Part shown: piece after piece, positions 1,556 through 37,733 of the stretch
Layout of the letters: each line of letters begins with the position of its first letter
Numbering within the stretch: position 1 is the first letter of the stretch
Source of the DNA: Verrucomicrobiota bacterium
GTDB lineage: Bacteria > Verrucomicrobiota > Verrucomicrobiia > Limisphaerales > UBA8199
Direction: 5' to 3'
Length of the DNA: 42,199 nt
Assembly (NCBI GenBank): GCA_029974925.1
Contig: JARKQH010000131.1
Location: 1 to 42,199 of the forward strand
Translations under genes and position numbers: made by a program
Notes under the pieces: model-generated
What the model was told of the DNA's origin: nothing
The model's database searches: none
What the model saw: the letters and a program-made list of their open reading frames with translations, nothing else

Positions 1556-2431
1556 TTAGCGCGAGGAGAGCGCGACCAGATAGCGCTGCAACCGCGTGAC
1601 TTCTGATTTATGGCCCAGATGGTCGTAGATTTGATGCAAATTGCCGCAGATTCGCAATAGCATCCGCCGGGGGGTGGTGGGGGCCAGGTAATCCTCGCGC
1701 AAACTGTAGTTCCCTTGGAGGAGATATTGAATGCAATCGGACTTGGATAGCAGTTTCCCCCGCCCAAATGGGTCAATATACACTTCTGCTGCACTGGTTT
1801 GGTAACGGCAGATAAAGTGGCCGGGCAGTCCTATTCCAGCCACCGGCAGCCTCAGCCGCCGGGTCACCAGGATGTAAACCAGCGATAGGTTGATGGGGTT
1901 GCCCGTCCGCCGGTCCAGAACCCGGTTGAGATAGCTGTTCTCGGGATCGTAATAGTTCTCTTCGTTGCCACAGAAACCGAGCTCCTCAAACAGGTAGCCG
2001 TTGATGGCGGGCAGGAGGTCTTCGGGCTGGGATAGATTCTGGATGCGGTTGCCCAGTTGGTCCGCGAATTGGTCCAGAAGCGCCTGATATCCGGCAACAT
2101 TGATGTCAGGGTAAACCGTCTGTGCCAGCAGCCATGCCCCCGCCTCCAGGTCGAGTTCCTCCCCTTGATTCAAACAGAAGGCCAGGAACCGGTCATCCGC
2201 CTCCTGCCGCTCGAAATGGCGTATGATCTCCTGCGTGCGCCGGCGCAGGAGGGGATCATGGCTCAGCCGGTGCCGCCGAAGCCAGGTGGTTACTTCGGGG
2301 CCCCGGGAAATCAGGGCTTCCCGAATGGGACGATAAACCCCCGGGTCTTCATCCGCCAGCAATGTGAGCAGAGCGGCCTTTTGGCTGTCGGATAACGGGC
2401 CGGACAACGGGATGGAGTCAGCCGCGTTCAT
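1556..2431 (-). CDS. SirB1 / transglutaminase-like family protein
   Basis: A 291-residue cytoplasmic protein of the SirB1 N-terminal (transglutaminase-like) family. The diagnostic core is at residues about 165-205: YYDPENSYLNRVLDRRTG, then NPINLSLVYI and GIGLPGHF. The last motif holds the conserved His of the fold. The N-terminal third is helical (LADEDPGVYRPIREALIS). The family is widespread, but its enzymatic activity is poorly established. Some members lack the catalytic Cys of true transglutaminases, and none is obvious in the usual position here (NLSLVY replaces a Cys-containing strand). I chose the ATG at 2431. A TTG at 2446 is also in frame, and neither has a strong Shine-Dalgarno. The gene is monocistronic by context, with nothing that fixes its pathway. 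Confidence 0.85.
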   Translation of the reverse strand: MNAADSIPLSGPLSDSQKAALLTLLADEDPGVYRPIREALISRGPEVTTWLRRHRLSHDPLLRRRTQEIIRHFERQEADDRFLAFCLNQGEELDLEAGAWLLAQTVYPDINVAGYQALLDQFADQLGNRIQNLSQPEDLLPAINGYLFEELGFCGNEENYYDPENSYLNRVLDRRTGNPINLSLVYILVTRRLRLPVAGIGLPGHFICRYQTSAAEVYIDPFGRGKLLSKSDCIQYLLQGNYSLREDYLAPTTPRRMLLRICGNLHQIYDHLGHKSEVTRLQRYLVALSSR

Positions 2432-2533
2432 AAACAGGTTACCCAAGTAATAGACGAAAAAGCGGGAGAAAATTCAATCAATAAACTTTTCGAAATGCAA
2501 ATTTGTTGGTTGACAAGTCGGCCCAAACCAGCA

Positions 2534-2842
2534 TCAGGGTTTTTTCGCGGCCTTTCCGCGCGTTTCAGCCCGTTTTTCGGCCTTTTCGGCCACTTCCTTG
2601 AGCGCAGCCTCGAACAAGGCGCGCTGTTCCCGGCGGGCGCGGGCGCGCAAGGCCCAGACCTCCAGAATGGCCACGGCCATGGCCAGGGCCGTCAAGGCGA
2701 TGCAGAGCAGCCAGTAGAGCAGAAAGATCACGGGCGGCAGCCGGCCGGCCAGCACCGTCTCTCCCAGGACCAGCAGGGTCAATGCAGCCAGCAACACGAC
2801 CAGTCCAAAACGACGCCTGCGGCTTGTCGCATCCACGTTCAC
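2534..2842 (-). CDS. Small two-helix membrane protein, hypothetical
   Basis: A 102-residue protein with a basic N terminus (SRRRRF), two closely spaced hydrophobic segments (about 12-32 and 36-60) and a charged Ala/Lys/Glu-rich C-terminal helix that probably forms a coiled coil (ALFEAALKEVAEKAEKRAE). Both ends are likely cytoplasmic. The start is a GTG at 2842, or a second GTG two codons later, with no clear Shine-Dalgarno, so the start is uncertain. It lies 102 bases downstream of the SirB1-type gene on the same strand and may be cotranscribed. No family is recognised. The overlapping reverse-frame alternatives lack the hydrophobic pattern and were left out. Confidence 0.55.
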   Translation of the reverse strand: MNVDATSRRRRFGLVVLLAALTLLVLGETVLAGRLPPVIFLLYWLLCIALTALAMAVAILEVWALRARARREQRALFEAALKEVAEKAEKRAETRGKAAKKP

Positions 2843-2990
2843 GCCGGCAGTCTAACACACGGCGGCCAGGCTGGCGACCCCGATCCGCGCCGCCTCACCC
2901 GCGCACCGGCGTCATTACATTTGCCGCGAGAAATTGTACTTTCCCGACCCGGGTTCCCGGTGGATTATGGGAAAAACTGAAAGGTTTACC

Positions 2991-4046
2991 ATGGGTCTGA
3001 TGGATTACTTGAAGACGCAACTGCTCGACATCATCGAGTGGCAGGACGACTCGCGGGACACGCTCTCGTATCGTTTTCCGGACGAGGACAAGGAGATCAA
3101 ACGGGGGGCGCAGTTGATCGTGCGCGAATCGCAGGTGGCGCAGTTTGTTTACCTGGGCCAGTTTGGCGACACCTTCGGCCCGGGCAAATGGACGCTGACC
3201 ACGGATAACATTCCCATCCTTTCGACCCTCAAGGGCTGGAAGTATGGCTTCGAATCGCCGTTCAAGGCCGATATCTATTTCGTCACCACCCGCTTGTTTA
3301 CCGGCAACAAATGGGGCACGGCCAACCCGGTGATGATGCGGGACCCGGATTTCGGCATCGTTCGTGTGCGGGCCTATGGCACGTTTGACTTCAAGGTGGT
3401 GGATCCGCGGCTTTTCCTGCGGGAAGTGGCCGGCACGGACCACCAGTTCCGGCTGGACGAATTCGCCGACACCATGCGGTCGCGCGTGGTGAGCGTATTC
3501 AGCGACGCCCTGGCTTCGGCCAATGTGCCCGTTTTGGATGTGGCCTCGCGGTATCAGGATTTGGGCGAGGCGCTCCTGCCCCTGATTAATCCGGCGATGA
3601 CCGCCAAATATGGCCTCGAAATTCCCAGTTTTGTCATTGAAAACGTTTCCCTGCCGCCGGAGGTCGAGCAGGCCATTGACAAGCGCTCGAGCATGGCCGC
3701 CATCGGCAATCTGAATGACTACGTGAAATTCCAGATGGCCGAAAGCATGACCCGGGGTGAGGGCGGGGGAATGGCCGCCAACGCCGCCCAGCTTGGCGCG
3801 GGCCTGGCCATGGGTCAGCAGATCATGCAGGGGTTGGCGGCAGGACAGGGTGCGCCTGCGGTTCCGGCGGGTGCCGGCGGCGCCGCGCTCCCGGAACTGC
3901 TGGGTCCCGCCGAGGCCGCGCGGATGCTGGGAGTGAGCGAGACGGACGTTCTGGCCGCGCTGGCTGACGGGTCGCTCAAAGGCAAGAAAATCGGCACCGC
4001 CTGGCGGATCACCCGCGCCGCCCTCGAGGAATTTCTCAAAAGCTGA
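2991..4046 (+). CDS. SPFH-domain (YdjI-type, virion core protein-like) protein with C-terminal HTH
   Basis: A 351-residue protein of the YdjI branch of SPFH/prohibitin-like proteins. The start at 2991 (MGLMDYLKTQLLDIIEW) has GAAAGG eight bases upstream and matches the usual family N terminus. Residues 1-80 carry the family signature (IIEWQDDSRDTLSYRFP, a REsQVAQFV strand, FGPGKWTLTTDNIPIL). Residues about 85-245 are the SPFH core. There is no transmembrane anchor. A Gly/Ala/Met-rich linker (256-300) leads to residues 304-351, which read as an excisionase/MerR-type helix-turn-helix (PAEAARMLGVSETDVLAAL, then GTAWRITRAALEEFL). Many relatives end in a zinc ribbon instead. Here the zinc ribbons are in the next gene, suggesting that the two proteins work together. 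SPFH proteins assemble scaffolds at membranes. The role of the HTH is inference, and it may bind protein rather than DNA. Confidence 0.88.
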   Translation: MGLMDYLKTQLLDIIEWQDDSRDTLSYRFPDEDKEIKRGAQLIVRESQVAQFVYLGQFGDTFGPGKWTLTTDNIPILSTLKGWKYGFESPFKADIYFVTTRLFTGNKWGTANPVMMRDPDFGIVRVRAYGTFDFKVVDPRLFLREVAGTDHQFRLDEFADTMRSRVVSVFSDALASANVPVLDVASRYQDLGEALLPLINPAMTAKYGLEIPSFVIENVSLPPEVEQAIDKRSSMAAIGNLNDYVKFQMAESMTRGEGGGMAANAAQLGAGLAMGQQIMQGLAAGQGAPAVPAGAGGAALPELLGPAEAARMLGVSETDVLAALADGSLKGKKIGTAWRITRAALEEFLKS

Positions 4047-4123
4047 ATGGCGATGCCGCCTCGCCGTGTTGGGTGCCCTCGCCGGCTGGACGGCTGGGCG
4101 GGGCGTTACGGGCGGCAATTCTC

Positions 4124-5227
4124 GTGAACGAAGCCACCGCCCAGAAGAAGTTCTCCTGTCCGGCCTGCGGCGCCGATGCCCATTGGAACCCGGCCAAGAC
4201 CGCACTGGTTTGCCCCTTTTGCGGGACCACCTCGCCGGCCCAAGTGGAGCTGACGGCGGGGGGCGAGGAGACGATCAAAGAACATGACCTGGTTGCGGCG
4301 CTGCGCGCACTGCCCGACGCCCAGCGTGGCTGGCAGGCGCGCAAAACCGCCGTTCGCTGTCAAAGCTGCCAGGCGATTTCAGTTTTTGACGCCGAGCGAG
4401 TGGGCCAGCGCTGCGATTTCTGCGGCTCCGCGGCCCTGGTGCCTTACGACGAGATCAAGGAAAGCATCCGGCCTGAAAGCCTGCTGCCCATGAAATTGGC
4501 AGAGAGCGATGTCCGTAACGCGATTCGGCGCTGGTATGGCACGCGTTGGTTCGCCCCCAACAAGTTGAAGCGGGCCGCTTTCACCGACACGGTCAAGGGC
4601 CTCTACATTCCTTATTGGACATTCGACGCCCAGGTCCATGCCCGCTGGACGGCGGAAAGCGGTTACTACTACTACGTCACGGAAACCTACCGTGATTCCA
4701 ACGGGCACACGCGGACCCGCCAGGTGCGAAGAATCCGATGGGAACCCAGCAGCGGTGAACTGGACCATTTTTTTGACGACGAGCTGGTGCCGGCTTCGCG
4801 GGGGGTGGACGCGGCCATGCTGCGCCGCATCGAGCCCTATCCCACGGCTCAACTGGTTCCCTACAACCCGGGGTTTCTGGCCGGCTGGGTGGTGGAGCGT
4901 TACCAGATTGACCTGTTGGCGGCGGCCCAGGCCGCGCGCTCGAGAATGAACTCGACGCTCGAGCGGCTTTGTGCGGCCCAGGTGCCCGGCGACACGCATC
5001 GCTTTCTCCAAGTGTATCCCACTTATTCCGCTCAGACCTTCAAGCACATCCTCGTCCCCATCTGGCTGCTGTCCTACAGTTACGGAAAACGACGGTTTCA
5101 GGTTGTCATAAACGGCTTCACCGGCGCGATCGCCGGCAAGTACCCCAAGAGCTGGATCAAGATCACCCTGGCGGTTCTGGCCCTCCTGGCTCTGGTTGGC
5201 CTCCTGGTGCTGGCGGCTCACCGGTAA
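4124..5227 (+). CDS. Double zinc-ribbon, tail-anchored membrane protein partner of the SPFH protein
   Basis: A 367-residue protein with two zinc ribbons and a C-terminal membrane anchor. Counting from the GTG at 4124, the first CxxC pair is C12/C15 and C30/C33, and the second is C79/C82 and C97/C100. Residues 115-340 form a conserved domain with LYIPYWTFDAQVHARW and an aromatic stretch (GYYYYVTETY). The last 25 residues (WIKITLAVLALLALVGLLV) are a single membrane helix with a very short tail. Such proteins are often misnamed PriA or replication factor Y because of the zinc ribbons, but there is no helicase domain here. An upstream GTG at 4073 is also in frame, but the added residues are low-complexity. 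The gene follows the SPFH gene by 77 bases on the same strand and is probably in its operon. No enzymatic motif is visible. Confidence 0.8.
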   Translation: MNEATAQKKFSCPACGADAHWNPAKTALVCPFCGTTSPAQVELTAGGEETIKEHDLVAALRALPDAQRGWQARKTAVRCQSCQAISVFDAERVGQRCDFCGSAALVPYDEIKESIRPESLLPMKLAESDVRNAIRRWYGTRWFAPNKLKRAAFTDTVKGLYIPYWTFDAQVHARWTAESGYYYYVTETYRDSNGHTRTRQVRRIRWEPSSGELDHFFDDELVPASRGVDAAMLRRIEPYPTAQLVPYNPGFLAGWVVERYQIDLLAAAQAARSRMNSTLERLCAAQVPGDTHRFLQVYPTYSAQTFKHILVPIWLLSYSYGKRRFQVVINGFTGAIAGKYPKSWIKITLAVLALLALVGLLVLAAHR

Positions 5228-5244
5228 CCTTGCCCGGGATGCGG

Positions 5245-5277
5245 AAAAGGCGATCCGGCTCAGCCGAATCGCCCTTT
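5245..5277 (+). terminator. Hairpin after the zinc-ribbon gene
   Basis: Stem GGCGAT/ATCGCC with an inner CGGC/GCCG helix, one mismatch and a TCA loop, extended by AAAA/TTT. It begins 17 bases after the stop codon at 5227. The trailing T-run is short (CTTTCC), so termination strength is doubtful. Confidence 0.4.
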
Positions 5278-5530
5278 CCTAACCAACCTAACAACCACCA
5301 CAATAACCCCATTGAAATTATACACGCAGGTGCTGATGATGCAACTGGCTCAGCCCTAAAACGCGGCCCCGCCACCCTCCGCGAATCGGGGGTGCGGCCG
5401 CCGGCCATGGCATAAATAATTGATAAAAAACCTGATATGCAGGTCGTGCAAATCGCCTCCCTTGATCAAGGAAGTTTTACTTTCGCAGAGGTATTCCTGT
5501 TGTCTGGCCGGGCATGCCGGGCACCGTCCG
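5278..5530. other. Convergent intergenic stretch without a gene
   Basis: With the hairpin above, this makes about 300 bases between two converging genes. It holds an AT-rich patch at 5411-5440 and a perfect 12-base palindrome, CCTTGATCAAGG, at 5460-5471 followed by a T-rich run. The palindrome could be a weak terminator or a protein site. No coding frame has a recognisable product. Confidence 0.45.
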
Positions 5531-5797
5531 CTAGCGCTTGAGGAAATGGCGGCCCACTCTCCACGCGGCGAGGATGGCTGGCAGCCAGCGCGCCACCCCG
5601 CCGCGGTAGCGCATGGCCAGAAAGCCCAGCACAGCCGCGGCGCCAATCAGCCATGAACGGCTGGCTTTGGCCGTCTGGCGCGCCCCGCCCAGCCAGCCCA
5701 GGCGCTCGCGCAGAGAAGTCAATTCCAACTGCAGCGTGGCCCGACGCATGTCCGCCTGGAGAACCAGCAGACGTCGCGTTTCTTCGAGATCGGTCAT
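5531..5797 (-). CDS. YqjK-like small membrane protein
   Basis: An 88-residue protein (MTDLEETRRLLVLQADMRR) with an N-terminal amphipathic helix and a hydrophobic segment (about 48-60, SWLIGAAAVLGFLAMRY), then a basic Trp-containing tail. I start it at the ATG at 5797, which overlaps the stop of the upstream gene in the classic ATGA manner. An ATG at 5815 is also possible. Its position third after yqjD- and yqjE-like genes, its size and its topology match YqjK of Proteobacteria, although sequence identity looks weak, so the assignment rests on context. It presumably sits in the inner membrane as part of the same envelope-stress-associated unit. Confidence 0.6.
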   Translation of the reverse strand: MTDLEETRRLLVLQADMRRATLQLELTSLRERLGWLGGARQTAKASRSWLIGAAAVLGFLAMRYRGGVARWLPAILAAWRVGRHFLKR

Positions 5798-6183
5798 TTC
5801 TTGGTCGTAAACCATTCCCGATCCTTTTTCAACTGGTTGAGGGTTTGCTCAAAAGGCGTGGGACTTTTGCGGAGGTGGTCGCGCAGGCGCCAAAGCAGAA
5901 AGGCTCCGGCCCCCGCGAACAGGAGGGTCATTGCCACCAAGCCGGCATACCGCGCGACCTGCCAGACATAAAGCGCCAAGGTGAAAGTCCCGAGAAGCAG
6001 GCCCACCGCCGCGAGGGAAACCGCTGCCGCAAATCTAAGCAGCGTCTCGAGCAAGCGAAGGCGCTCGAGCTGCAACTCCACTGCGAGGAGCTGCACCCGG
6101 TTTTCGATCAGGCCCAGCACCGAAAGCGCAATGCGCCGAATGGCCCCCGACAGGCCCTTCGGGCTCGTATCGCTTTCCGGCAT
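5794..6183 (-). CDS. YqjE-like (phage holin family, holin-X type) membrane protein
   Basis: A 129-residue inner-membrane protein. An N-terminal amphipathic helix (about 10-48, rich in Leu/Glu/Arg, LIENRVQLLAVELQLER) precedes two membrane helices (about 49-73 and 78-100) and a charged C terminus ending WFTTKK. The ExR..L...E pattern before two membrane spans is the hallmark of the YqjE / holin superfamily III group. These are not lysis proteins despite the name. They travel with DUF883 genes and are linked to membrane stress in E. coli. It starts two bases after the stop of the yqjD-like gene and overlaps the next gene by four bases, so the three genes form one translationally coupled operon. 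Confidence 0.8.
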   Translation of the reverse strand: MPESDTSPKGLSGAIRRIALSVLGLIENRVQLLAVELQLERLRLLETLLRFAAAVSLAAVGLLLGTFTLALYVWQVARYAGLVAMTLLFAGAGAFLLWRLRDHLRKSPTPFEQTLNQLKKDREWFTTKK

Positions 6184-6185
6184 GG

Positions 6186-6506
6186 CTAGCGGCGCGCCAC
6201 CAGCACTCCGATCAGCAACCCGACGCCGAACGCGATCCCAATGGATTCATAGGGATGATTCCGGATCACCTTGTCGGTCGCCTTGGCTGCTTCAACCGTC
6301 TTTTCCTCCAGCCGATGATAAGTGGCCTTGGCCTTTTCCAGCGCGGCGTTCAAGCGCGACCTCGCGGCTTTGGCCTTTTCGCTCATGTCGCCCGCCGTGG
6401 CCTTCAGCAGTTCCTCGGCGTCGTTGACCAGGTTCCGCAGGTCTTCCTTCACCTTCTCTTTTGAAACCGGCGCTTCCGACTGAATGCCTTCAAAATGAGT
6501 CTCCAT
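6186..6506 (-). CDS. ElaB/YqjD/DUF883-family membrane-anchored ribosome-binding protein
   Basis: A 106-residue protein. A long charged helix (about 15-75, Ala/Lys/Glu-rich) is followed by the family's C-terminal anchor (NHPYESIGIAFGVGLLIGVL, then VARR), which contains the small-xxx-small membrane motif. In E. coli, YqjD and ElaB sit in the inner membrane through this C-terminal helix and bind ribosomes in stationary phase. That role is known for the family and inferred here. The start at 6506 has AAAGG seven bases upstream (AAAGGCGAAAGT before ATG). It is the first gene of a three-gene minus-strand operon with the YqjE- and YqjK-like genes. Confidence 0.88.
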   Translation of the reverse strand: METHFEGIQSEAPVSKEKVKEDLRNLVNDAEELLKATAGDMSEKAKAARSRLNAALEKAKATYHRLEEKTVEAAKATDKVIRNHPYESIGIAFGVGLLIGVLVARR

Positions 6507-17009: not shown

Positions 17010-18362
17010 GTGGTGCAACAGCAGCAAACAATCAACCGCCCCGTGAGCCTGTCGGGTGTCGGTCTGCACAGCGGCAATCGCGTGAGCATGACCTTTCTCC
17101 CGGCGCCGCCGAACAGTGGCATTCGCTTCCGGCGGGTGGACCTGGAGGGCCATCCCGAGATTGAGGCGCGGGTGGAGAATGTCGTCGAAACCAATCGCTC
17201 GACCACGCTGGCGAAAGGCAATGTGCGCATTCACACCGTCGAGCACGTGCTGGCGACCTTTGCCGGTTACGGGATTGACAACGCCGTGGTGGAATTGGAC
17301 GCGAATGAGCCGCCCATTGCGGATGGAAGCGCGCGGGAATACTGCCGCCTGATCCAGGAAAGCGGCGTGGTGCCGCAGGAGGAGCGGAGAGAACCGTACC
17401 GCCTGACCGCGCCCATTGAACTCGAGATGGGGGAGACGCTGATGACCCTTTTCCCGGATGAGGGGTTCAAGATCAGTTGCACCAGTGCGGACCGCAAGGG
17501 CCGGTTTACCCAGTTCTACCAGGTGGAACTGTCGCCCAAAACGTGGGAAAAGGAACTGGCGCATGCGCGGACGTTTTGTTTCTTCGAGGAGATCGAGTAT
17601 TTGATCAAGAACGGCCTGATCAAGGGGGGCGGCTTGGAGAACGCGGTGGTGATCCGGGATGACGCGGTGCTGACGACGGAGCCGCTGCGGTATGCGGAGG
17701 AGTTCGTGCGGCACAAGATTCTTGACATAGTCGGCGACTTGTCATTACTGGGCCGGCCCCTGCAGGCCCATCTCGTGGCCGTCAAACCCAGCCATGCGGC
17801 CAATTGCGAACTGGTCCGGCGCGTGGCGGCCCAAATCCGCAAGCCGGTCGTCGCGGCGCAGACCTTCGCCCCCCCGCCGCCTCCGCCGCCGGCGCGGAGT
17901 GGTTCTCTTGAAGAAGCGGCGGCGGCCCAGGAGGGGGCGGTGGACATTTACGGTTTGATGGGACTGCTGCCGCATCGCTACCCCTTCATCATGGTGGACC
18001 GGGTGCTGAAACTGGAGGGGAATCGGATTGTGGCGGTCAAGAACGTGACCATTAACGAGCCCTATTTCCAGGGACACTTTCCCGGGCATCCCATCATGCC
18101 CGGGGTTTTGCAGTTGGAGGCGATGGCGCAGGTGGCGGGGATTGTGATGCTGCGCCGGGCGGAGAGTGGCGGCCAGATTGCCTACTTCATGGCGGCGGAG
18201 GACGTGAAGTGGCGCAAGCCTGTCGTGCAGGGGGATGTGCTGGTGATCGAGGTGGAGCTGACCAAAATGCGGGGGAAAATCGGGCGCGCCAAGGGCGTGT
18301 GCAAGGTCCAGGGCGAAGTGGTCAGCGAGGCGGAGGTGACCTTCATGATGCGGGAGGCCTGA
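17010..18362 (+). CDS. lpxC-fabZ: Bifunctional LpxC deacetylase / FabZ dehydratase
   Basis: A 450-residue fusion. Residues 1-280 are LpxC, the zinc enzyme for the committed step of lipid A synthesis. Zinc ligands are H79 (HTVEHVLA), H235 and D239 (RHKILDIVGDL), with H262 (KPSHAANCEL) and E78 in catalysis. A Pro/Ala-rich linker (283-312, seven Pro at 288-294) joins it to FabZ (313-450), the beta-hydroxyacyl-ACP dehydratase, with catalytic H356 (GHFPGHP) and E370 (QLEAMAQ). The start is one of two adjacent GTG codons (17010 or 17013). The ATG at 17002 is out of frame. The fusion is known in Bacteroidota and Verrucomicrobiota and links hydroxyacyl-ACP use in lipid A and fatty-acid synthesis. lpxA follows after 32 bases. 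Confidence 0.96.
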   Translation: MVQQQQTINRPVSLSGVGLHSGNRVSMTFLPAPPNSGIRFRRVDLEGHPEIEARVENVVETNRSTTLAKGNVRIHTVEHVLATFAGYGIDNAVVELDANEPPIADGSAREYCRLIQESGVVPQEERREPYRLTAPIELEMGETLMTLFPDEGFKISCTSADRKGRFTQFYQVELSPKTWEKELAHARTFCFFEEIEYLIKNGLIKGGGLENAVVIRDDAVLTTEPLRYAEEFVRHKILDIVGDLSLLGRPLQAHLVAVKPSHAANCELVRRVAAQIRKPVVAAQTFAPPPPPPPARSGSLEEAAAAQEGAVDIYGLMGLLPHRYPFIMVDRVLKLEGNRIVAVKNVTINEPYFQGHFPGHPIMPGVLQLEAMAQVAGIVMLRRAESGGQIAYFMAAEDVKWRKPVVQGDVLVIEVELTKMRGKIGRAKGVCKVQGEVVSEAEVTFMMREA

Positions 18363-28855: not shown

Positions 28856-28899
28856 CCCTCCGGGACCCATCGCTTGCCATGGCGCCTGGAGGGTTTTTT
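28856..28899 (+). terminator. Rho-independent terminator of the coiled-coil gene
   Basis: Outer stem CCCTCC/GGAGGG with an inner CCAT/ATGG helix, followed by six T residues (28894-28899). It lies about 20 bases past the stop at 28836. Confidence 0.75.
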
Positions 28900-28932
28900 G
28901 TTGCCAGGCCACCCGCCAGAGCTCAAGTCGTG

Positions 28933-31248
28933 ATGAACGTTCCCATGATCAGGTTTGAGACGAGCCGCTTTGTGGTCCGCCTCCGGGCCGGCTCCGTGAG
29001 GCAGTTCGGAACGGTCCCCGCCAGGCGGAGCGCGTCGCCCCGCGGCCGGACAGGCAGCTTTGTCCCGCGGCATCCCGATTGGCGGTGGCCACGGCGTTGG
29101 CTGACCTTTTTGCGGCCGGTGGCCATGGCGGTGCTCTTCGGTTGTTTTCTCTCCGGATTGGCCCGGGCAGGAGAGGTCCGTCCCGAGCGTTGGCGCTGGT
29201 CAAACCCGCGCCCTCACGGCAACAACATTCTCGACCTGGTCGTCACCCCCACGGTGGCCGTGCAGGTGGGCGACGCGGGCACGATTTACGTTCAGCGCGA
29301 AGACGAGCGCTGGGCCCCGGCGGTCACCGGCGTTACCAACTACCTCCGCGGCGTGGCACTCATGGGCGAGCGCTTTATCGCGGTTGGGGAGAACGGCTGC
29401 ATTTTGTGGTCGGATGACGGGGCTGTGTTTCAACCCGCCCAGGTGTCGCCGCCAACCACGGACTGGTTCGAGGGTGTGGCGGCTTCGGCGCAACGGGCCG
29501 TCGCGGTCGGTGACAACGGTTCCATCTACACCAGCACCAATGGCACTTTGTGGACGAAGGCAACTTCCGGCACGACCGAGTGGCTGCGCAGCGTCGCCTT
29601 TGGCGCCGCCGGCTTCGTGGCCGTGGGCGAGAACGGCACGGTGCTGCGCGCCGGCAGCAATGGCAGTTCCTGGACCCGCGCGACGATTTCCACCGCTCAC
29701 CTCAACCGCGTGCGTTACCTCGGCGTTGGCGGCAGCGCCCAGTTCTACATCGTGGGAACCGGTGGCGGCGTCTGGTCCAGTTCCAGCTCGAGCGGCCCCT
29801 GGACCTCCCTCGCCAGCGGCACCACCAACACCCTTTACGACGTGGCCTTGAACGACACCGGTTTGCTCGTGGTTGGCGACCAGGAGGTTCGTTTCCGGGC
29901 CGCAGGCACGACCGCCTGGACCAACCAGATTACTGACCTGCCGACCAATGCGCCGCCGGCCTGGGTTTATCTCACCGCTCACGGGCAGACCAACTACTGG
30001 CTGGCGGCTGGCCGCACGGGCCTGATGGTCTCGGGCAGTCGCAGCAACAGCGCCGCCGTATATACCTGGCAGGTGCTGCCGGATTCCTCCCACGCCTGGC
30101 TCTGGGACCTCACGGTCCAGCGAGGCATCTACGTCGCCGCAGGCGACCTGGCCACCATACAAACCAGCCTCGACGGGATTCTATGGGCCAGAGAAGTGGT
30201 GCCCTTGCCGCACACCAACACCGTGCTGCTGGGCGTGGGAGGCACTTCCAATCTTCTGCTGGCCGCCGGAAACGCGGGCAACCTGCTCATCAGCCGTTCC
30301 GGCCTGACCAACCTCATTATAACCAATTATGTCGGAACCAACCTCGTGGTCACCAATACCACCTTTGACACGTTGGGGCTCCTCTGGACCAACCTGCCTC
30401 CCTTTACCACCAACACCCTCCAGGGCGTGGCCTGCGACGGCTCCACCTTTGTGGTGTGTGGCGACCGCGGCCAAATCTTCACCAGCGCTGACGGGTCCAA
30501 CTTCACCGCCCGGGCCACCGCCACCACCAATTTCTTGTCCAGTGTGGCCCCCGGTCCCAACGGCTGGGTGGCCGTCGGCAGCCGTGGAACACTCCTGCGT
30601 GCGGGCCTTGACGCGGTGAGCTGGTCGCCGGTTTCGTTGGGCACCACCAACTGGCTCTATCGCGTTCGGTATCTCGGGGGGCAGTATGTGGTCGTGGGGC
30701 AGAACGGTTCGATTTACACCAGCGCGAACACTCTGAACTGGACCCTGCGGTCCAGCGGCACGACTCGCTGGCTGAATGATGCCGCCTGGCTTGACGGGCA
30801 ATGGTTTGTCGTCGGCACCCAGGGCCTGCTGCTTTCCAGCAGCAACCTGGTGCATTGGCAGGCGCTGCCCGTGCCCACCGGTAAATCGCTCTACGCGGCC
30901 ACTGCCTTTAATGGCCAGTTGGTGCTGGCCGGCATTGAGGGCGTCATCCTTCGCAACCAGGTTGTTCCGGCAACCTCACCGGTGGACTTTCTGGGTTATC
31001 ACCGCAGTGTCGCCACCAACGTCGTGGGTCAAACCAATACCAGCTACACCGCGACCGAGCTGTTCCTTTTCGGGGGGCTGCCGGACCAGTTCTTCCAGTT
31101 CCAATCCGCGACCAACGTCACCGGGCCGTGGATCACCAACGCCACCTTCGAGCTGTTCGATCCCTCCGGAACCATCTATCTGCTTCGCACTCGCAACCTC
31201 ACGAACACTCCCCCGCGAGAATTCTACCGGACCCGGCTGGTGCCCTGA
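28933..31248 (+). CDS. Secreted beta-propeller (BNR/YCF48-like) protein with fourteen repeats
   Basis: A 771-residue exported protein. The start at 28933 (MNVPMIRFETSRF) leaves a long basic N-region before the hydrophobic signal (VAMAVLFGCFLSGLARA), so the true start may be later. The body is built from repeats of the form F.AVGENG.I..S: I count fourteen, for example VAVGDNGSIYTS, VAVGENGTVLRA, YVAAGDLATIQTS, FVVCGDRGQIFTS and YVVVGQNGSIYTS. Fourteen would fit two seven-bladed propellers. Such proteins resemble sialidase-type or Ycf48-like propellers, but sialidase Asp-boxes and a catalytic Arg triad were not identified, so a binding role is more likely. The C terminus (FFQFQSATNVTGPW...REFYRTRLVP) resembles the tail of other secreted proteins in the window. 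Confidence 0.78.
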   Translation: MNVPMIRFETSRFVVRLRAGSVRQFGTVPARRSASPRGRTGSFVPRHPDWRWPRRWLTFLRPVAMAVLFGCFLSGLARAGEVRPERWRWSNPRPHGNNILDLVVTPTVAVQVGDAGTIYVQREDERWAPAVTGVTNYLRGVALMGERFIAVGENGCILWSDDGAVFQPAQVSPPTTDWFEGVAASAQRAVAVGDNGSIYTSTNGTLWTKATSGTTEWLRSVAFGAAGFVAVGENGTVLRAGSNGSSWTRATISTAHLNRVRYLGVGGSAQFYIVGTGGGVWSSSSSSGPWTSLASGTTNTLYDVALNDTGLLVVGDQEVRFRAAGTTAWTNQITDLPTNAPPAWVYLTAHGQTNYWLAAGRTGLMVSGSRSNSAAVYTWQVLPDSSHAWLWDLTVQRGIYVAAGDLATIQTSLDGILWAREVVPLPHTNTVLLGVGGTSNLLLAAGNAGNLLISRSGLTNLIITNYVGTNLVVTNTTFDTLGLLWTNLPPFTTNTLQGVACDGSTFVVCGDRGQIFTSADGSNFTARATATTNFLSSVAPGPNGWVAVGSRGTLLRAGLDAVSWSPVSLGTTNWLYRVRYLGGQYVVVGQNGSIYTSANTLNWTLRSSGTTRWLNDAAWLDGQWFVVGTQGLLLSSSNLVHWQALPVPTGKSLYAATAFNGQLVLAGIEGVILRNQVVPATSPVDFLGYHRSVATNVVGQTNTSYTATELFLFGGLPDQFFQFQSATNVTGPWITNATFELFDPSGTIYLLRTRNLTNTPPREFYRTRLVP

Positions 31249-33337: not shown

Positions 33338-36300
33338 TCAGCGCTCCCGGCGGATTTCGCGGAGCACAAAGGGTTCGAACATCCCGTAGGCCACGGTGTG
33401 GTATTGCGCGCCCGGCGGCGGTCCATTATCGGGCCCTTTGTGAAACGCGTTCGGCCAGGCGGCGCCCAAGGCGGGGCTGCCGTGATGCGGCCCGAGCAAA
33501 TTCTTGAGGGTGCCAATGACGGTCACTTCGATTTCATTCGAGCCGCGCTTGATAAACCGCGTGGCGTCGCAAGTCCAGGGCGGCGCATCCACGTACCCCG
33601 CCAGTCTGCCGTTGACGGTGACCCGCGCCACCGCGCCGTGCCAATCGGGAAGGGCCACTTCGTAGCGGTCCGAACGCCGGGTGACGTTGAACCGCTGGGA
33701 ATAGGCAATGCCTCCGCTGTAGAACGGGTGGCCCTGAGCATTCCAGCCATCCCGCGAAAAGCCCATCCCGCTGCCGTCGGTGAGCCTCCGCGCGCTCCGA
33801 TGGCGGGAAGCCAGCTCGCTGGATGCCCCCGCCACGCTGACCGGCTCGACTCGCTCGCCGTCCCGGGCCAAGAACCGCACCTCGGCCAGCCCAACAAAGC
33901 CGTTGTCCGGCGGTTCGCCTTCCGCGGGGAAGACAGTGCCGTTGTGGTTTTCGAGAATGTCGAACCGAACGAAGCGAACCTTGGCATCAGGCAGTTCCAG
34001 GACCGTACCCCCTTCCTCGCCTCCGCCGGCCTTGGGGAGATTGAAAACGCCCAGGTCGAGGTTGAAGGCGCCGGCGGGGCCGTGGGTCCCCCCCGAGATG
34101 CGCAGTCGTTTGACGCCCCGGGAGGTGAGATTTTTGATATGACTTTCGTTGTAGTTATACACCTCGATTTTACCCAGCGCGATTTCACGGCCCAGGTCGA
34201 AGACCAGGAAAGGCGAGCGGTCGTCCGGGCGGTTGTCGCCGGCCGATTTTTCGAAGTTGATTCCGGCGCTGAGCCACATGGTGCCATCCGGATTGTTGGT
34301 GTGGGTGGGACGTTTGTCCCGCCGGCCCAGCTTGAGGGGCTGATCGGGGGCGACGACAAAGCCGCGGTCCGTGGGGCGGAGGGTGAAACTGCCCAGGAGG
34401 TAGGCGGGTTCCAGTTCATGGAACAAGCTGAACGGGCGGGCTTGCAACGTGACGCGGTTGATGCCGGTCCGGGCCAGGGAAGCTATCGGGAGGCGATGAA
34501 AAGCCTTGTCCAGCCACCAGTCCTTGGGATTGGGGGTCACGAGTTGGCCGTTGCAGGTGACGCGGTAAAGGTCCGCCCGCTCAATGACGATGGCCAGGTC
34601 ATTCGGCACGGGGCCTTCGACGGTGAACGTGTAGGTTGCCTCGAAACCACTGTCCGCGGGAAACTGCCGGCGAATCAATTCGTCTTTGAACTGCACCGCG
34701 CTGTCCCAGGGGTTTCGTTCCCAGCCGTTTTTCTTCCAGACGAACTGACCGGCCTGGTAACAATAGGTGTTGGTTTTGGTCTCACCACCCGCGGTGACAT
34801 CCACGTAGTCAATCGTCAGCATATTGGGGCCCAGGCGCCGGATTTTGGGAGGGCCATCAGCCGTGAGCACAGCCGGGGTTTCTCGAGCGAATTGGGCCGG
34901 ACCCGCTTTGGGGCTCAGCAACAGCAGCAGGCTGCCTGACGGGGGCAACTCGAACGCAGCCGTCAGGCCGGCTGCGTGGCGGGTGGCGGGATAGGGCAGA
35001 GTCTTTCCGGTGTAAAGGTCCCATTTTTCCGCGCGGCAAAGATGCGACTCGATCGTGCCACGGGAGGGATGCTCGAGGCTGGTATTGACGAGGAACAACA
35101 GCTCGCCATCGGGCAATTGACGGCGGTGATGGAAGAGGATCCCGCGGTCATTCGCGGCGCGGTGAATGCTGAAGCCTTCGGCTTGCTGGCGCTGCCGGAG
35201 GTCGGCGATGAGCTTGTCGCGCCAGGCGGAGAGCTGGGCCGGGTCCGGCGCCGCCGCCGGTCTTTGGGCGTCTGAAAGCAGGGCGCCATCCACGCGCGAA
35301 GGTTCCGGGCCCGCCGTGTACCGTTTGGTTGCGGTTCGCTCGAACAGCTCGCGGGTCTTCCGGTTGAGGTTTTCAGTATGGGGCGGCAGCACCACGGTAT
35401 GATATTCGCGCCGGCCCACCTTCAGGTGCGTGGCGACGGTCTTGCCATTCACCTGGATGGTCTGGCCGCCGGGCGCCCCGTGCGATGCGAGGATGTCCTC
35501 GCATCCGAGGTCGTATTCGATTTGAGCGGCTTCCAGGGCCATGAGGAGGTCGAAGAAAGCGCTGCCCAGCGCGTTCAACTGTTGGCTGTCCCCCTGGTAC
35601 ATCCAGGCGGTGGTGGTGGGCTCCAGCACCAGCACGCGGTTGATTTGCTGTCCCTGAGACAGCGCCGCGGACAGGCGGGCGAAATAGCGGGCGGAAACGT
35701 GATACGCCTCCCACCACGGATCGTGATAGGAAAAGGACTGGGGATGATCGCGCTTGCGGGCGCCGCGGAGCGTCAGGAAGGTCAGGTGCTGATTGAGGGT
35801 GTTGACGCCCAGAACCTCGAGCCAGTCGCCGATGCGTTTCATGTCCTCGAACCGCAGGTCCCACCCGGCGGCGCCGTAGATTTCGCAGAGCGTTCGGGGC
35901 CAGCCAACCTGGTTGGCCACGCTCGAGAGCTCCTTGACCATGCGGACGTTGCCGAATTGCGCGTGGGTGTGCTCGGCGTATTGGTTCATCAAGCAATCAA
36001 TTGCCGGGCGCTGGTGCCACGCGTACATCGCCATGTTGTCCGGCACGCCCCGGCAGTCCGGCCAGTCATGGTCCCAGTAGTGCCCGGTCCACTCGAGGCG
36101 GTTGGTCCGGCAGTACTCATAATTGGGCCGCGCCCAGCGTTCGACAAACAGCTCATGGAGAAGCTGGTAATAGTTGTGCCGGACCTTGCGCCAATCCCCC
36201 ACCGGGTGGGACAGACTGGGCAGGTGCGCCAGCAGGCTGTAGCCCCAGCGTCGCTCAAATGCCCGGGGCAAATCCTCCGTCCAAGGAAGCCCTTTGGCGG

Positions 36301-37045
36301 GGCGGATGTTGGGTTCGTCGGTGAAGACGCCGGGAACCCGCCGGCCGAACTCCTTCCCGAGCTGCCGCCGGTAGGGCTCCATCGTCACTTCGAGAAATTT
36401 CTCCGTGACGCCCGGTGTCAGCAGGTTCACGTAGCAACGATTCCCGTGCCAGGGCGAGTTTTCCGAGCGCACTTCGGCGGCCACCAGGTACTGCCCTTCC
36501 TCGAATGCGGCTCCAGAGCGGGCCTGCGCGGTCACGTTTTCATATTCCGCGCCGCTCAGACGAAACACGGCCACGAGGTCCGAGGACCACGCCGGCGGAG
36601 TTTTGACCTCGCGCAGGGCCAGGCCACGGCCCCGCGACTCGGGCATGGCGTCCGGCACCAACCCGCCCGCGAAGCCGGAGGGATAGGAGTTCTCGTCGTA
36701 GATCCACACCTTCATATCCAGCCGGGCAGCCTCCTGGAGCGCTACCTTCCAGAGCCGGAACCAATCCTCGCCCAGATAGGGGGTCATGAGTCCGGGCCGG
36801 GGGTGAACCCAAACCTGTTTGACGCCTTGGCGGGCCAGGTCGCGCAGGCTGTCCCGAAGCTGCTCCTCCGTCAGCCAGTCGTTCCACACCCAAAGCGGTC
36901 CGGTGCTGTATTCCGTCGGCGGGTCCCGAAACAAACGGCGGACCTTGGCCGAATCCGGCGGGCCGCCGGCCGCCATCCATGCCGCGGGAAAAAGCCAGAG
37001 AGACAGGGCCAGGAGCGCGATGCCGTTGCAGCCATGACGTTTCAT
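33338..37045 (-). CDS. Very large secreted GH106-like (alpha-L-rhamnosidase family) glycosidase
   Basis: A 1235-residue exported protein. I start it at the ATG at 37045 (MKRHGCNGIALLALSLWLFP), which gives a proper signal peptide. The open frame continues to 37267, but that part is Arg/Pro-rich and overlaps the divergent MarR gene. After the signal comes the GH106-type opening: GPLWVWNDWLTEEQLRDSL, WVHPRPGLMTPYLGEDWF and MKVWIYDENSYPSGFAGG, which form a TIM barrel (to about 600). Beta-sandwich domains follow, including a discoidin-like segment and a C-terminal galactose-binding-like domain (VNGRLAGYVDAPPW, NEIEVTVIGTLKNLLGPHHG). GH106 enzymes remove alpha-L-rhamnose from pectic and other polymers. 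I recognise the family by pattern and did not identify the catalytic Glu pair. Confidence 0.85.
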   Translation of the reverse strand: MKRHGCNGIALLALSLWLFPAAWMAAGGPPDSAKVRRLFRDPPTEYSTGPLWVWNDWLTEEQLRDSLRDLARQGVKQVWVHPRPGLMTPYLGEDWFRLWKVALQEAARLDMKVWIYDENSYPSGFAGGLVPDAMPESRGRGLALREVKTPPAWSSDLVAVFRLSGAEYENVTAQARSGAAFEEGQYLVAAEVRSENSPWHGNRCYVNLLTPGVTEKFLEVTMEPYRRQLGKEFGRRVPGVFTDEPNIRPAKGLPWTEDLPRAFERRWGYSLLAHLPSLSHPVGDWRKVRHNYYQLLHELFVERWARPNYEYCRTNRLEWTGHYWDHDWPDCRGVPDNMAMYAWHQRPAIDCLMNQYAEHTHAQFGNVRMVKELSSVANQVGWPRTLCEIYGAAGWDLRFEDMKRIGDWLEVLGVNTLNQHLTFLTLRGARKRDHPQSFSYHDPWWEAYHVSARYFARLSAALSQGQQINRVLVLEPTTTAWMYQGDSQQLNALGSAFFDLLMALEAAQIEYDLGCEDILASHGAPGGQTIQVNGKTVATHLKVGRREYHTVVLPPHTENLNRKTRELFERTATKRYTAGPEPSRVDGALLSDAQRPAAAPDPAQLSAWRDKLIADLRQRQQAEGFSIHRAANDRGILFHHRRQLPDGELLFLVNTSLEHPSRGTIESHLCRAEKWDLYTGKTLPYPATRHAAGLTAAFELPPSGSLLLLLSPKAGPAQFARETPAVLTADGPPKIRRLGPNMLTIDYVDVTAGGETKTNTYCYQAGQFVWKKNGWERNPWDSAVQFKDELIRRQFPADSGFEATYTFTVEGPVPNDLAIVIERADLYRVTCNGQLVTPNPKDWWLDKAFHRLPIASLARTGINRVTLQARPFSLFHELEPAYLLGSFTLRPTDRGFVVAPDQPLKLGRRDKRPTHTNNPDGTMWLSAGINFEKSAGDNRPDDRSPFLVFDLGREIALGKIEVYNYNESHIKNLTSRGVKRLRISGGTHGPAGAFNLDLGVFNLPKAGGGEEGGTVLELPDAKVRFVRFDILENHNGTVFPAEGEPPDNGFVGLAEVRFLARDGERVEPVSVAGASSELASRHRSARRLTDGSGMGFSRDGWNAQGHPFYSGGIAYSQRFNVTRRSDRYEVALPDWHGAVARVTVNGRLAGYVDAPPWTCDATRFIKRGSNEIEVTVIGTLKNLLGPHHGSPALGAAWPNAFHKGPDNGPPPGAQYHTVAYGMFEPFVLREIRRER

Positions 37046-37230
37046 AATGTGCCAGGTGCGCGCCATTCTGCGGCAGCCGGGAACCAAAGCAAGCACGGAC
37101 CTCGGCCAACGACCCCGGGCAGGCGTGGACACACCAAGAGGGGGGCGGCCGGTCCGGGCCGCCGAGGGGAACCCGGGGAGGGGGGACGGGGCCGGAACCC
37201 GGAGGGTTCGAAAATAACGCATTACAACAG

Positions 37231-37259
37231 TTGACACATAAACAATAATATAGTAAACA
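37231..37259 (+). promoter_or_regulatory. Promoter/operator region of the MarR gene
   Basis: A perfect TTGACA (37231-37236) and a weak -10 (TAAACA, 37254-37259) at 17 bases place the transcript start on the MarR ATG at 37266, which implies a leaderless mRNA. The region is AT-rich in a GC-rich neighbourhood. It contains a direct repeat TAAACA (37239-37244 and 37254-37259) and outer inverted arms GTTGACA (37230-37236) / TGACAAC (37267-37273) with one mismatch. These are candidate sites for autoregulation by MarR and for control of the divergent GH106-like gene. Confidence 0.35.
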
Positions 37260-37265
37260 GTATGC

Positions 37266-37733
37266 ATGACAACAGAGCCTGAGGCCGGGCGGCCGCGCTA
37301 TCGGACGCTGCTGGAGTTGCTCCGAACCGCGGATACCATTTGGGACGCCAGCCGTGTTTTCTTCGCGCGGTGGGACCTCAGCCCCAGCCAGTTCAACGTG
37401 TTGAACCTTCTGCATCTGAATCCCGAAGGGTTATCCCAGGCGGACTTGAGCCGTTTCCTGATCATGCACCGTTCGAATGTGACGGGCCTGGTGGACCGTT
37501 TGGAGCAGCGCGGTCTGGTGGCACGGCGGGATGTCGTTGGCGACCGGCGCGCCTACCGGGTCCGGCTGACCGCGGCGGGCGAGCGCCTGGTGCGGGAGAT
37601 TCTGCCGCGGTATTATCAAGGGGCGGAGCGGCTTTGGGGCCGGGTACCGGACCGGCGGCTGGCGGAGTTGCGGGAGTTGCTGCTGCTGGCCGCGGAAAAC
37701 GCTCGGCGGATTGCGTCGGAACTGCGACATTAA
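37266..37733 (+). CDS. MarR-family transcriptional regulator
   Basis: A 155-residue winged helix-turn-helix repressor. The DNA-binding domain spans about 38-105: LSPSQFNVLNLL, the recognition helix region LSRFLIMHRSNVTGLVDRL and the wing DVVGDRRAYRVRLTAAG with D93/R94. N- and C-terminal helices form the dimer. MarR proteins usually repress their own operon and release DNA on binding a small phenolic or lipophilic ligand. It is the first gene of a plus-strand run that continues with the MFS, Aas-like and hydrolase genes. It is divergent from the GH106-like gene across about 220 bases. No Shine-Dalgarno is seen before the ATG at 37266, fitting a leaderless transcript. Confidence 0.9.
   Translation: MTTEPEAGRPRYRTLLELLRTADTIWDASRVFFARWDLSPSQFNVLNLLHLNPEGLSQADLSRFLIMHRSNVTGLVDRLEQRGLVARRDVVGDRRAYRVRLTAAGERLVREILPRYYQGAERLWGRVPDRRLAELRELLLLAAENARRIASELRH

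Follow-up and report, generated by a model that had tools for sequence, protein, structure and literature searches.

A bacterial SPFH protein with a winged helix-turn-helix tail and its double zinc-ribbon membrane neighbour: a conserved gene pair and probable membrane scaffold

SPFH proteins serve to organise membranes in all kinds of organism. One of them, YdjI of Bacillus subtilis, links PspA to the membrane. Here we describe two adjacent genes of a Verrucomicrobiota bacterium, found in a stretch of 42,199 nucleotides (the window, meaning the whole stretch analysed), which is contig C424 of a 5.73-Mb assembly (GCA_029974925.1; 487 contigs, 97.6% complete). The first open reading frame, ORF A, encodes an SPFH protein that ends in a winged helix-turn-helix (HTH) domain, and the second, ORF B, encodes a tail-anchored membrane protein with two zinc ribbons (Table 1). 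The pair is real, conserved, widespread in bacteria and little studied. We think it probable that the two genes make up a membrane scaffold of the YdjI/YdjG kind, in which ORF B anchors the SPFH protein and the winged HTH has been turned into a protein-docking tail. We also put forward, tentatively, that an HTH domain of the Xis/BldC type may have been exapted as the many-copy acidic tail of an SPFH ring, used either for docking or for head-to-tail packing on itself, within an ORF B-anchored and PspA-independent scaffold present in at least three phyla.

The architecture of ORF A is given by family profiles and by structure prediction. Pfam places a Band_7_1 domain (PF13421) at residues 27-236 (E=1.4e-87, 293.2 bits against a cut-off of 24) and an HTH_17 domain (PF12728) at residues 303-350 (E=3.3e-10, 40.5 bits against a cut-off of 27), and the NCBIfam excisionase model TIGR01764 also matches (E=1.1e-8). 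The AlphaFold2 model, built with 45 aligned sequences (mean predicted local distance difference test score, pLDDT, 75.6), shows an SPFH fold that is joined through a disordered linker to a confidently predicted winged HTH, the latter consisting of helices 306-313 and 317-326, strands 332-334 and 337-341, and helix 342-350 (block pLDDT 85-90). Using VIA-align, the SPFH part aligns to prohibitin (8rrh_B, Z 11.4), HflC (7vhq_G, Z 11.3) and flotillin (9l3g_a, Z 10.6), while the tail aligns to BldC-DNA complexes (6ama, Z 9.2, root-mean-square deviation (rmsd) 2.0 over 54 residues; 6amk, Z 9.0, rmsd 1.2 over 50) and further to Xis (4j2n, Z 8.5), RdfS (8dgl, Z 8.2) and CbpM (3ucs, Z 6.6). The tail of ORF A has both the fold and the family profile of excisionase/HTH_17 domains, and a preliminary description of this DNA, made from the letters alone, was right in placing an excisionase/MerR-like HTH behind a flexible linker at the C terminus. 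Searches against PDB sequences returned weak HflC matches for the whole protein (best E 0.0084) and nothing at E<=1 for the HTH tail by itself. The SPFH-HTH proteins lack a membrane segment, as none of 45 rows has a Kyte-Doolittle window of at least 1.6.

Table 1. Features of the two-gene unit; positions are those of the window.
Feature	Position	Strand	Basis
ORF A, SPFH protein with C-terminal HTH_17-like domain, 351 aa	2991..4046	+	
SPFH / Band_7_1 domain, residues 27-236	3069..3698	+	Pfam PF13421
Ala/Gly-rich flexible linker, residues 255-301	3753..3893	+	pLDDT mostly <50; composition
Winged-HTH tail, residues 303-351	3897..4043	+	HTH_17 above cut-off; AlphaFold2 model; fold matches
Recognition-helix equivalent, residues 316-326, SETDVLAALAD, acidic	3936..3968	+	Charge and position counts
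ORF B, double zinc-ribbon tail-anchored membrane protein, 367 aa from likely GTG start	4124..5227	+	
Zinc ribbon 1 (C12, C15, C30, C33)	4157..4222	+	Each Cys in 50/50 rows
Zinc ribbon 2 (C79, C82, C97, C100)	4358..4423	+	Each Cys in 50/50 rows
Long-stranded beta domain, residues 156-338	4589..5137	+	AlphaFold2 strands 156-190, 196-223, 291-320
C-terminal membrane helix, residues 344-366	5153..5221	+	Kyte-Doolittle 2.9 over 19 residues; helix in model

The longest frame of ORF B opens at a GTG at 4073, but homologous proteins start only around its residue 18, and the GTG at 4124 is therefore the likely start, leaving a gap of 77 bases behind ORF A. Besides the eight cysteines of the zinc ribbons, a ninth, C283, is invariant in all 50 rows, and each row carries a hydrophobic stretch inside its last 60 residues. 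None of the Pfam zinc-ribbon models passes its cut-off on ORF B (the best, Zn_Ribbon_TF, reaches 19.2 bits against 29), so the ribbon assignment rests on the invariant CxxC pairs. These data bear out the earlier claim that the neighbouring protein has two N-terminal zinc ribbons and a single membrane helix at its C terminus. The AlphaFold2 model (pLDDT 83) has short hairpins of low confidence in the zinc-ribbon region, strands 35, 28 and 30 residues long, and the C-terminal helix 344-366. It has no Foldseek match in the PDB at E<=0.001 and only VIA-align matches below Z 5 (the best, Z 4.7 to 4exr, covers 64 residues), and the sequence finds nothing among PDB sequences at E<=1. These structural matches assign no fold to the beta domain and speak neither for nor against an NTF2-like domain such as that published for YdjG (PMC11237479). 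Pore-forming toxins head the Foldseek list (best E 4.2e-3, TM-score at most 0.16) and were judged an artefact of the very long strands.

A scan of the GTDB species genomes for ORF A gave at least 589 relatives, the best 80 of which were kept as loci for counts. An ORF B relative lies close by in 63 of these 80 loci. The other 17 comprise eight whose sequence stops no more than 130 bases away from the SPFH gene and nine real misses, and a whole-genome search for these nine found a full partner elsewhere in six, a fragment in one and none in two. ORF A and ORF B are thus co-inherited even where adjacency has been lost. The preliminary description had named two results that would speak against its reading, a tail that is not HTH-like and homologues with no conserved neighbour, and neither occurred. 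Against a working unit stand an intergenic distance that ranges from -39 to 1376 bases and one branch in which the genes are apart. The opposite proposal, that the genes are mere neighbours with no common function, could appeal to a gap of 77 bases here and of up to 1376 elsewhere, and to a promoter and terminator scan that stayed at chance level and was uninformative. We consider it highly improbable in view of the adjacency across phyla, the co-occurrence in six of the nine genomes in which the genes are apart, and a comparable arrangement in the operon described for B. subtilis (PMC11237479). No third conserved neighbour comparable to ORF B was found in the flanks, where the best family reached 11 of 80 loci once overlapping frames of the pair were set aside, and Rfam had no match in 2400-5600.

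The SPFH-HTH architecture recurs at about 59-86% identity, which argues that it is not a product of chance. It is conserved across Verrucomicrobiota, Acidobacteriota, Burkholderiales and Xanthomonadales, and the best 80 of the at least 589 relatives include Comamonas testosteroni, Lysobacter, Stenotrophomonas and their relatives, several of the GTDB records being metagenome bins with doubtful names. Within the family to which the window belongs, ORF A has matches in 9 of 13 genomes, six of which hold a full SPFH-HTH protein in a single frame; the others are two contig-edge pieces (G012), a remote GYF type (G011) and an HTH protein only (G001). At the level of the phylum, 94 of 387 genomes have a match. 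The Prokaryotic Genome Annotation Pipeline (PGAP) already has a name for the architecture, "SPFH and helix-turn-helix domain-containing protein" (WP_224153175.1, on a plasmid of Comamonas odontotermitis); Pfam reads that protein as Band_7_1 plus HTH_17, and its gene is followed by one for a "TFIIB-type zinc ribbon-containing protein". Literature searches on the SPFH-HTH combination turned up no publication in which such proteins are described or tested. It should be added that the SPFH-HTH gene of Polaromonas (L148, 4001-5071) has an in-frame stop in the deposited sequence.

The recognition helix bears on whether the tail binds DNA. A hidden Markov model (HMM) of the tail, built from tails chosen by a regular expression demanding "DV", finds the HTH in 123 of 144 SPFH frames, and the 115 distinct tails among them are the basis of the counts that follow; the remaining 21 frames are 13 GYF types, six cut by contig ends and two (L156, L157) in which the frame seems disrupted. 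Across the 115 tails the equivalent of the recognition helix has a mean net charge of -2.97 (range -4 to -1), as against +1.11 (range -1 to +4) in 28 reference HTH_17 domains from the same and related genomes and +1.0 in a smaller first set of 13 other HTH_17 domains. In the BldC-DNA structure the contacts are made by Lys26, Thr27, Thr29, Arg30, Trp31 and Lys33, and the R30A substitution essentially abolishes DNA binding (PMC5859096). These residues map to T318, D319, L321, A322, A323 and A325 of ORF A, respectively. Neither Arg nor Lys is ever found at the Arg30 or the Lys33 position of the 115 tails, whereas one or the other occupies the former in 22 and the latter in 15 of the 28 reference domains; the Lys26 position is Lys in a single tail, and the Thr27 position is Asp in every one. 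With an acidic recognition helix and without the DNA-contacting residues, DNA binding by the ORF A tail appears unlikely, and the sequence makes it more likely that the tail grips another protein. The possible link to DNA raised in the preliminary description is weakened on the same grounds.

Several observations weigh against this interpretation of the tail. The difference in helix charge has p values of 2.3e-11 with the 13-domain reference and 3.2e-19 with the 28-domain reference, which overstate the case because the HTH tails share one branch and the 115 sequences are not independent. The residue mapping leans on the structural match, the HMMER alignment between the tail and BldC being weak (E 0.31 and 0.64), and Asp at the position of D319 also occurs in 3 of the 28 other HTH_17 domains. 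Moreover, the wing of the tail is still basic, +3.33 compared with +3.67 in other HTH_17 domains (13-domain comparison), and weak or non-specific contact with nucleic acid through it is possible. A tail that still binds DNA would let the SPFH ring tether the chromosome to the membrane, or would free a regulator when the ring changes state. Such a role would fit the retained wing, the closeness of the fold to DNA-bound BldC (6amk, 6ama) and to Xis, and the fact that the matching Pfam and NCBIfam models are those of DNA-binding families; yet with an acidic helix, with no basic residue at the Arg30 position, and with GYF_2 or SHOCT in the same slot of related proteins, we regard it as unlikely.

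A separate observation on HTH_17 domains comes from a 248-residue protein (L172, 1486-2232), which has one at its N terminus with a recognition helix of the ADV/AEV type; similar domains occur in L076, L174, L187 and L190. The C-terminal part of the 248-residue protein looks PTS-EIIA-like by eye, and HTH_17 domains of this type are perhaps another branch drifting away from DNA binding.

The place occupied by the HTH in ORF A is one that other PF13421 proteins fill differently. A survey of tail types in homologues, as suggested by the preliminary description, covered 89 proteins of the phylum (the window protein, L011-L039 and L202-L260) and found, with counts taken as exclusive, GYF_2 in 36, DZR/Zn_Ribbon_1 in 28, HTH_17 in 18 and SHOCT in 6, the remaining one (L243) ending early. 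The C-terminal zinc ribbon that was said to be frequent in YdjI-type proteins is accordingly present in only 28 of the 89, and ORF A has HTH_17 there. An association of SHOCT with PF13421 has been published (PMC3581485). Every relative with an intact end holds some small domain in this slot, and the tail slot of PF13421 SPFH proteins is modular. In a tree of the SPFH part, 106 HTH rows and 15 GYF rows are split by a branch with support 100/100, found in 100% of 200 bootstrap trees, where the root is a drawing aid and the bootstrap was not fully settled.

A filled slot also bears on whether the HTH could be an inert or purely structural appendage, for instance a solubility or packing domain under no constraint but that of its fold. 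Several of its invariant positions (L313, V315, V320, I334 and L349) are likely core residues, and D319 and R339 could form an internal salt bridge, both of which would fit such a domain. Nevertheless, the acidic helix of the tail is retained across at least three phyla and some small domain is always present in intact-ended relatives, and there is in our judgement little chance that the tail is inert.

The neighbour of the GYF-tailed relatives likewise has two ribbons. The preliminary description had read the ribbons of ORF B as appearing in the neighbour instead of in the SPFH protein, which does not hold, as in B. subtilis YdjG has two and its SPFH partner retains a ribbon as well (PMC11237479); on the same ground we abandoned the idea that the SPFH protein had given up its ribbons to the neighbour. 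The proposal of a membrane-bound partner recruiting a soluble SPFH protein fares better. The lack of a membrane segment in the SPFH-HTH proteins and the tail-anchored, co-occurring neighbour both agree with it, and recruitment itself is reasonable by analogy with YdjG/YdjH and YdjI. A narrower form of the explanation we favour would have the tail dock specifically on ORF B, through the zinc ribbons or the beta domain, as the recruitment contact. Strong co-inheritance, an acidic helix that suggests a basic surface on the partner, and the precedent of CbpM all agree with this, but a two-ribbon neighbour also stands beside GYF tails, so that the type of tail is not tied to the type of partner, and specific docking on ORF B seems to us conceivable though doubtful.

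Based on these data, the mechanism that we propose for the anchored scaffold is as follows. ORF A would be soluble and, like other members of the SPFH family, may be expected to form a ring or cage. ORF B would be anchored in the inner membrane through its C-terminal helix, its two zinc ribbons and beta domain lying in the cytoplasm, and would recruit the SPFH oligomer to the membrane much as YdjG and YdjH do with YdjI in B. subtilis. The winged HTH, presumably a DNA-binding domain in the past, would now be a flexibly tethered, many-copy module for docking protein, in the slot held by GYF_2, a zinc ribbon or SHOCT in related SPFH proteins, and ORF B would be the simplest candidate for the protein that it binds. 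The pair as a whole may have a role in envelope maintenance. If this is true, the tail of SPFH proteins is an exchangeable adaptor slot and the SPFH/zinc-ribbon pair an independent unit, and the automatic "helix-turn-helix" labels on SPFH-HTH proteins should not be taken to denote transcription factors.

The relation of the pair to PspA was examined by profile search, in which B. subtilis, as a control, has a PF13421 protein over the cut-off. Neither PspA_IM30 nor TPM (PF04536) has a match in the genome of the window, and the pair in this genome is not a member of a PspA-YdjGHI system. Among 146 genomes of the order, many of the genomes in these counts being incomplete, 60 have ORF B relatives and 8 have PspA over the cut-off, with both in G410 only; TPM occurs in 21 of the 60 ORF B-positive genomes and never on a contig with an ORF B relative. 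Outside the order the picture is mixed, PspA being present in 6 of 15 genomes with an SPFH-HTH gene. From the values of 1 in 60 within the order and 6 in 15 outside it, PspA is dispensable for the pair, although the two may occur in one genome.

Close to the pair, on the reverse strand (5531-6506), lie a 94-residue ORF with no Pfam match, a Phage_holin_3_6 protein (3.8e-16) and a DUF883 protein with a C-terminal glycine zipper; a glycine-zipper gene also follows the pair in C. odontotermitis. In Paracoccus ferrooxidans (L161, 2719-4919) an SPFH-GYF_2/zinc-ribbon pair comes after genes for a toxic anion resistance protein and a DUF2927 protein; a literature search on SPFH with TelA gave nothing useful. 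Elsewhere in the window, 17010-18362 (+) encodes an LpxC deacetylase fused to a FabA/FabZ-like dehydratase (LpxC 5-273, FabA 320-441), a fusion known in some Gram-negative phyla. A 789-residue protein containing repeats of the "AVGxxGxIYTS" type, for which no Pfam family reaches its cut-off, is encoded at 28879-31248 (+), and a 1309-residue protein with a GH106 alpha-L-rhamnosidase match at 33338-37267 (-).

The known system closest in arrangement to ORF A and ORF B is PspA-YdjGHI of B. subtilis. There, YdjI is a soluble SPFH protein, and the recruitment of YdjI and PspA to the membrane needs the membrane proteins YdjG and YdjH (PMC8581546); YdjG combines two zinc ribbons and a membrane segment with an NTF2-like domain related to YpeB, YdjH belongs to the TPM proteins, and a zinc ribbon forms the end of the SPFH protein (PMC11237479). 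In both systems a soluble SPFH protein adjoins a membrane-spanning protein whose N terminus carries two zinc ribbons (PMC11237479, PMC8581546), a likeness of published architecture and shared families, and by this analogy ORF A and ORF B probably work as YdjI and YdjG do in B. subtilis. They differ in that the tail of ORF A is an HTH in place of a zinc ribbon, and in that the B. subtilis operon has PspA and YdjH, whose families are both unmatched in the genome of the window. The PGAP entry named above has the same two domains and a zinc-ribbon neighbour; it is an automatic annotation without a function and otherwise differs in nothing of substance. SPFH-GYF_2 proteins, known from Vibrio, Paracoccus, Tsukamurella plasmids and many Verrucomicrobiota, share the SPFH domain and often adjoin a two-ribbon membrane protein, but their tail is GYF_2 and they fall on the opposite side of the 100/100 branch. 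As for the tail itself, BldC, Xis and RdfS are alike in fold (Z 8.2-9.2, rmsd 1.2-2.0), whereas in ORF A the DNA-contact residues of BldC are replaced and the recognition helix is acidic. A parallel to the docking tail that we propose is CbpM, a MerR-like domain without DNA-binding residues whose acidic side chains bind the basic J-domain of CbpA (PMC4063869). CbpM resembles the tail in fold (Z 6.6), in the loss of those residues and in its acidic contact surface, and it differs in being a separate coiled-coil dimer protein with no SPFH domain attached, the likeness between the two being one of fold.

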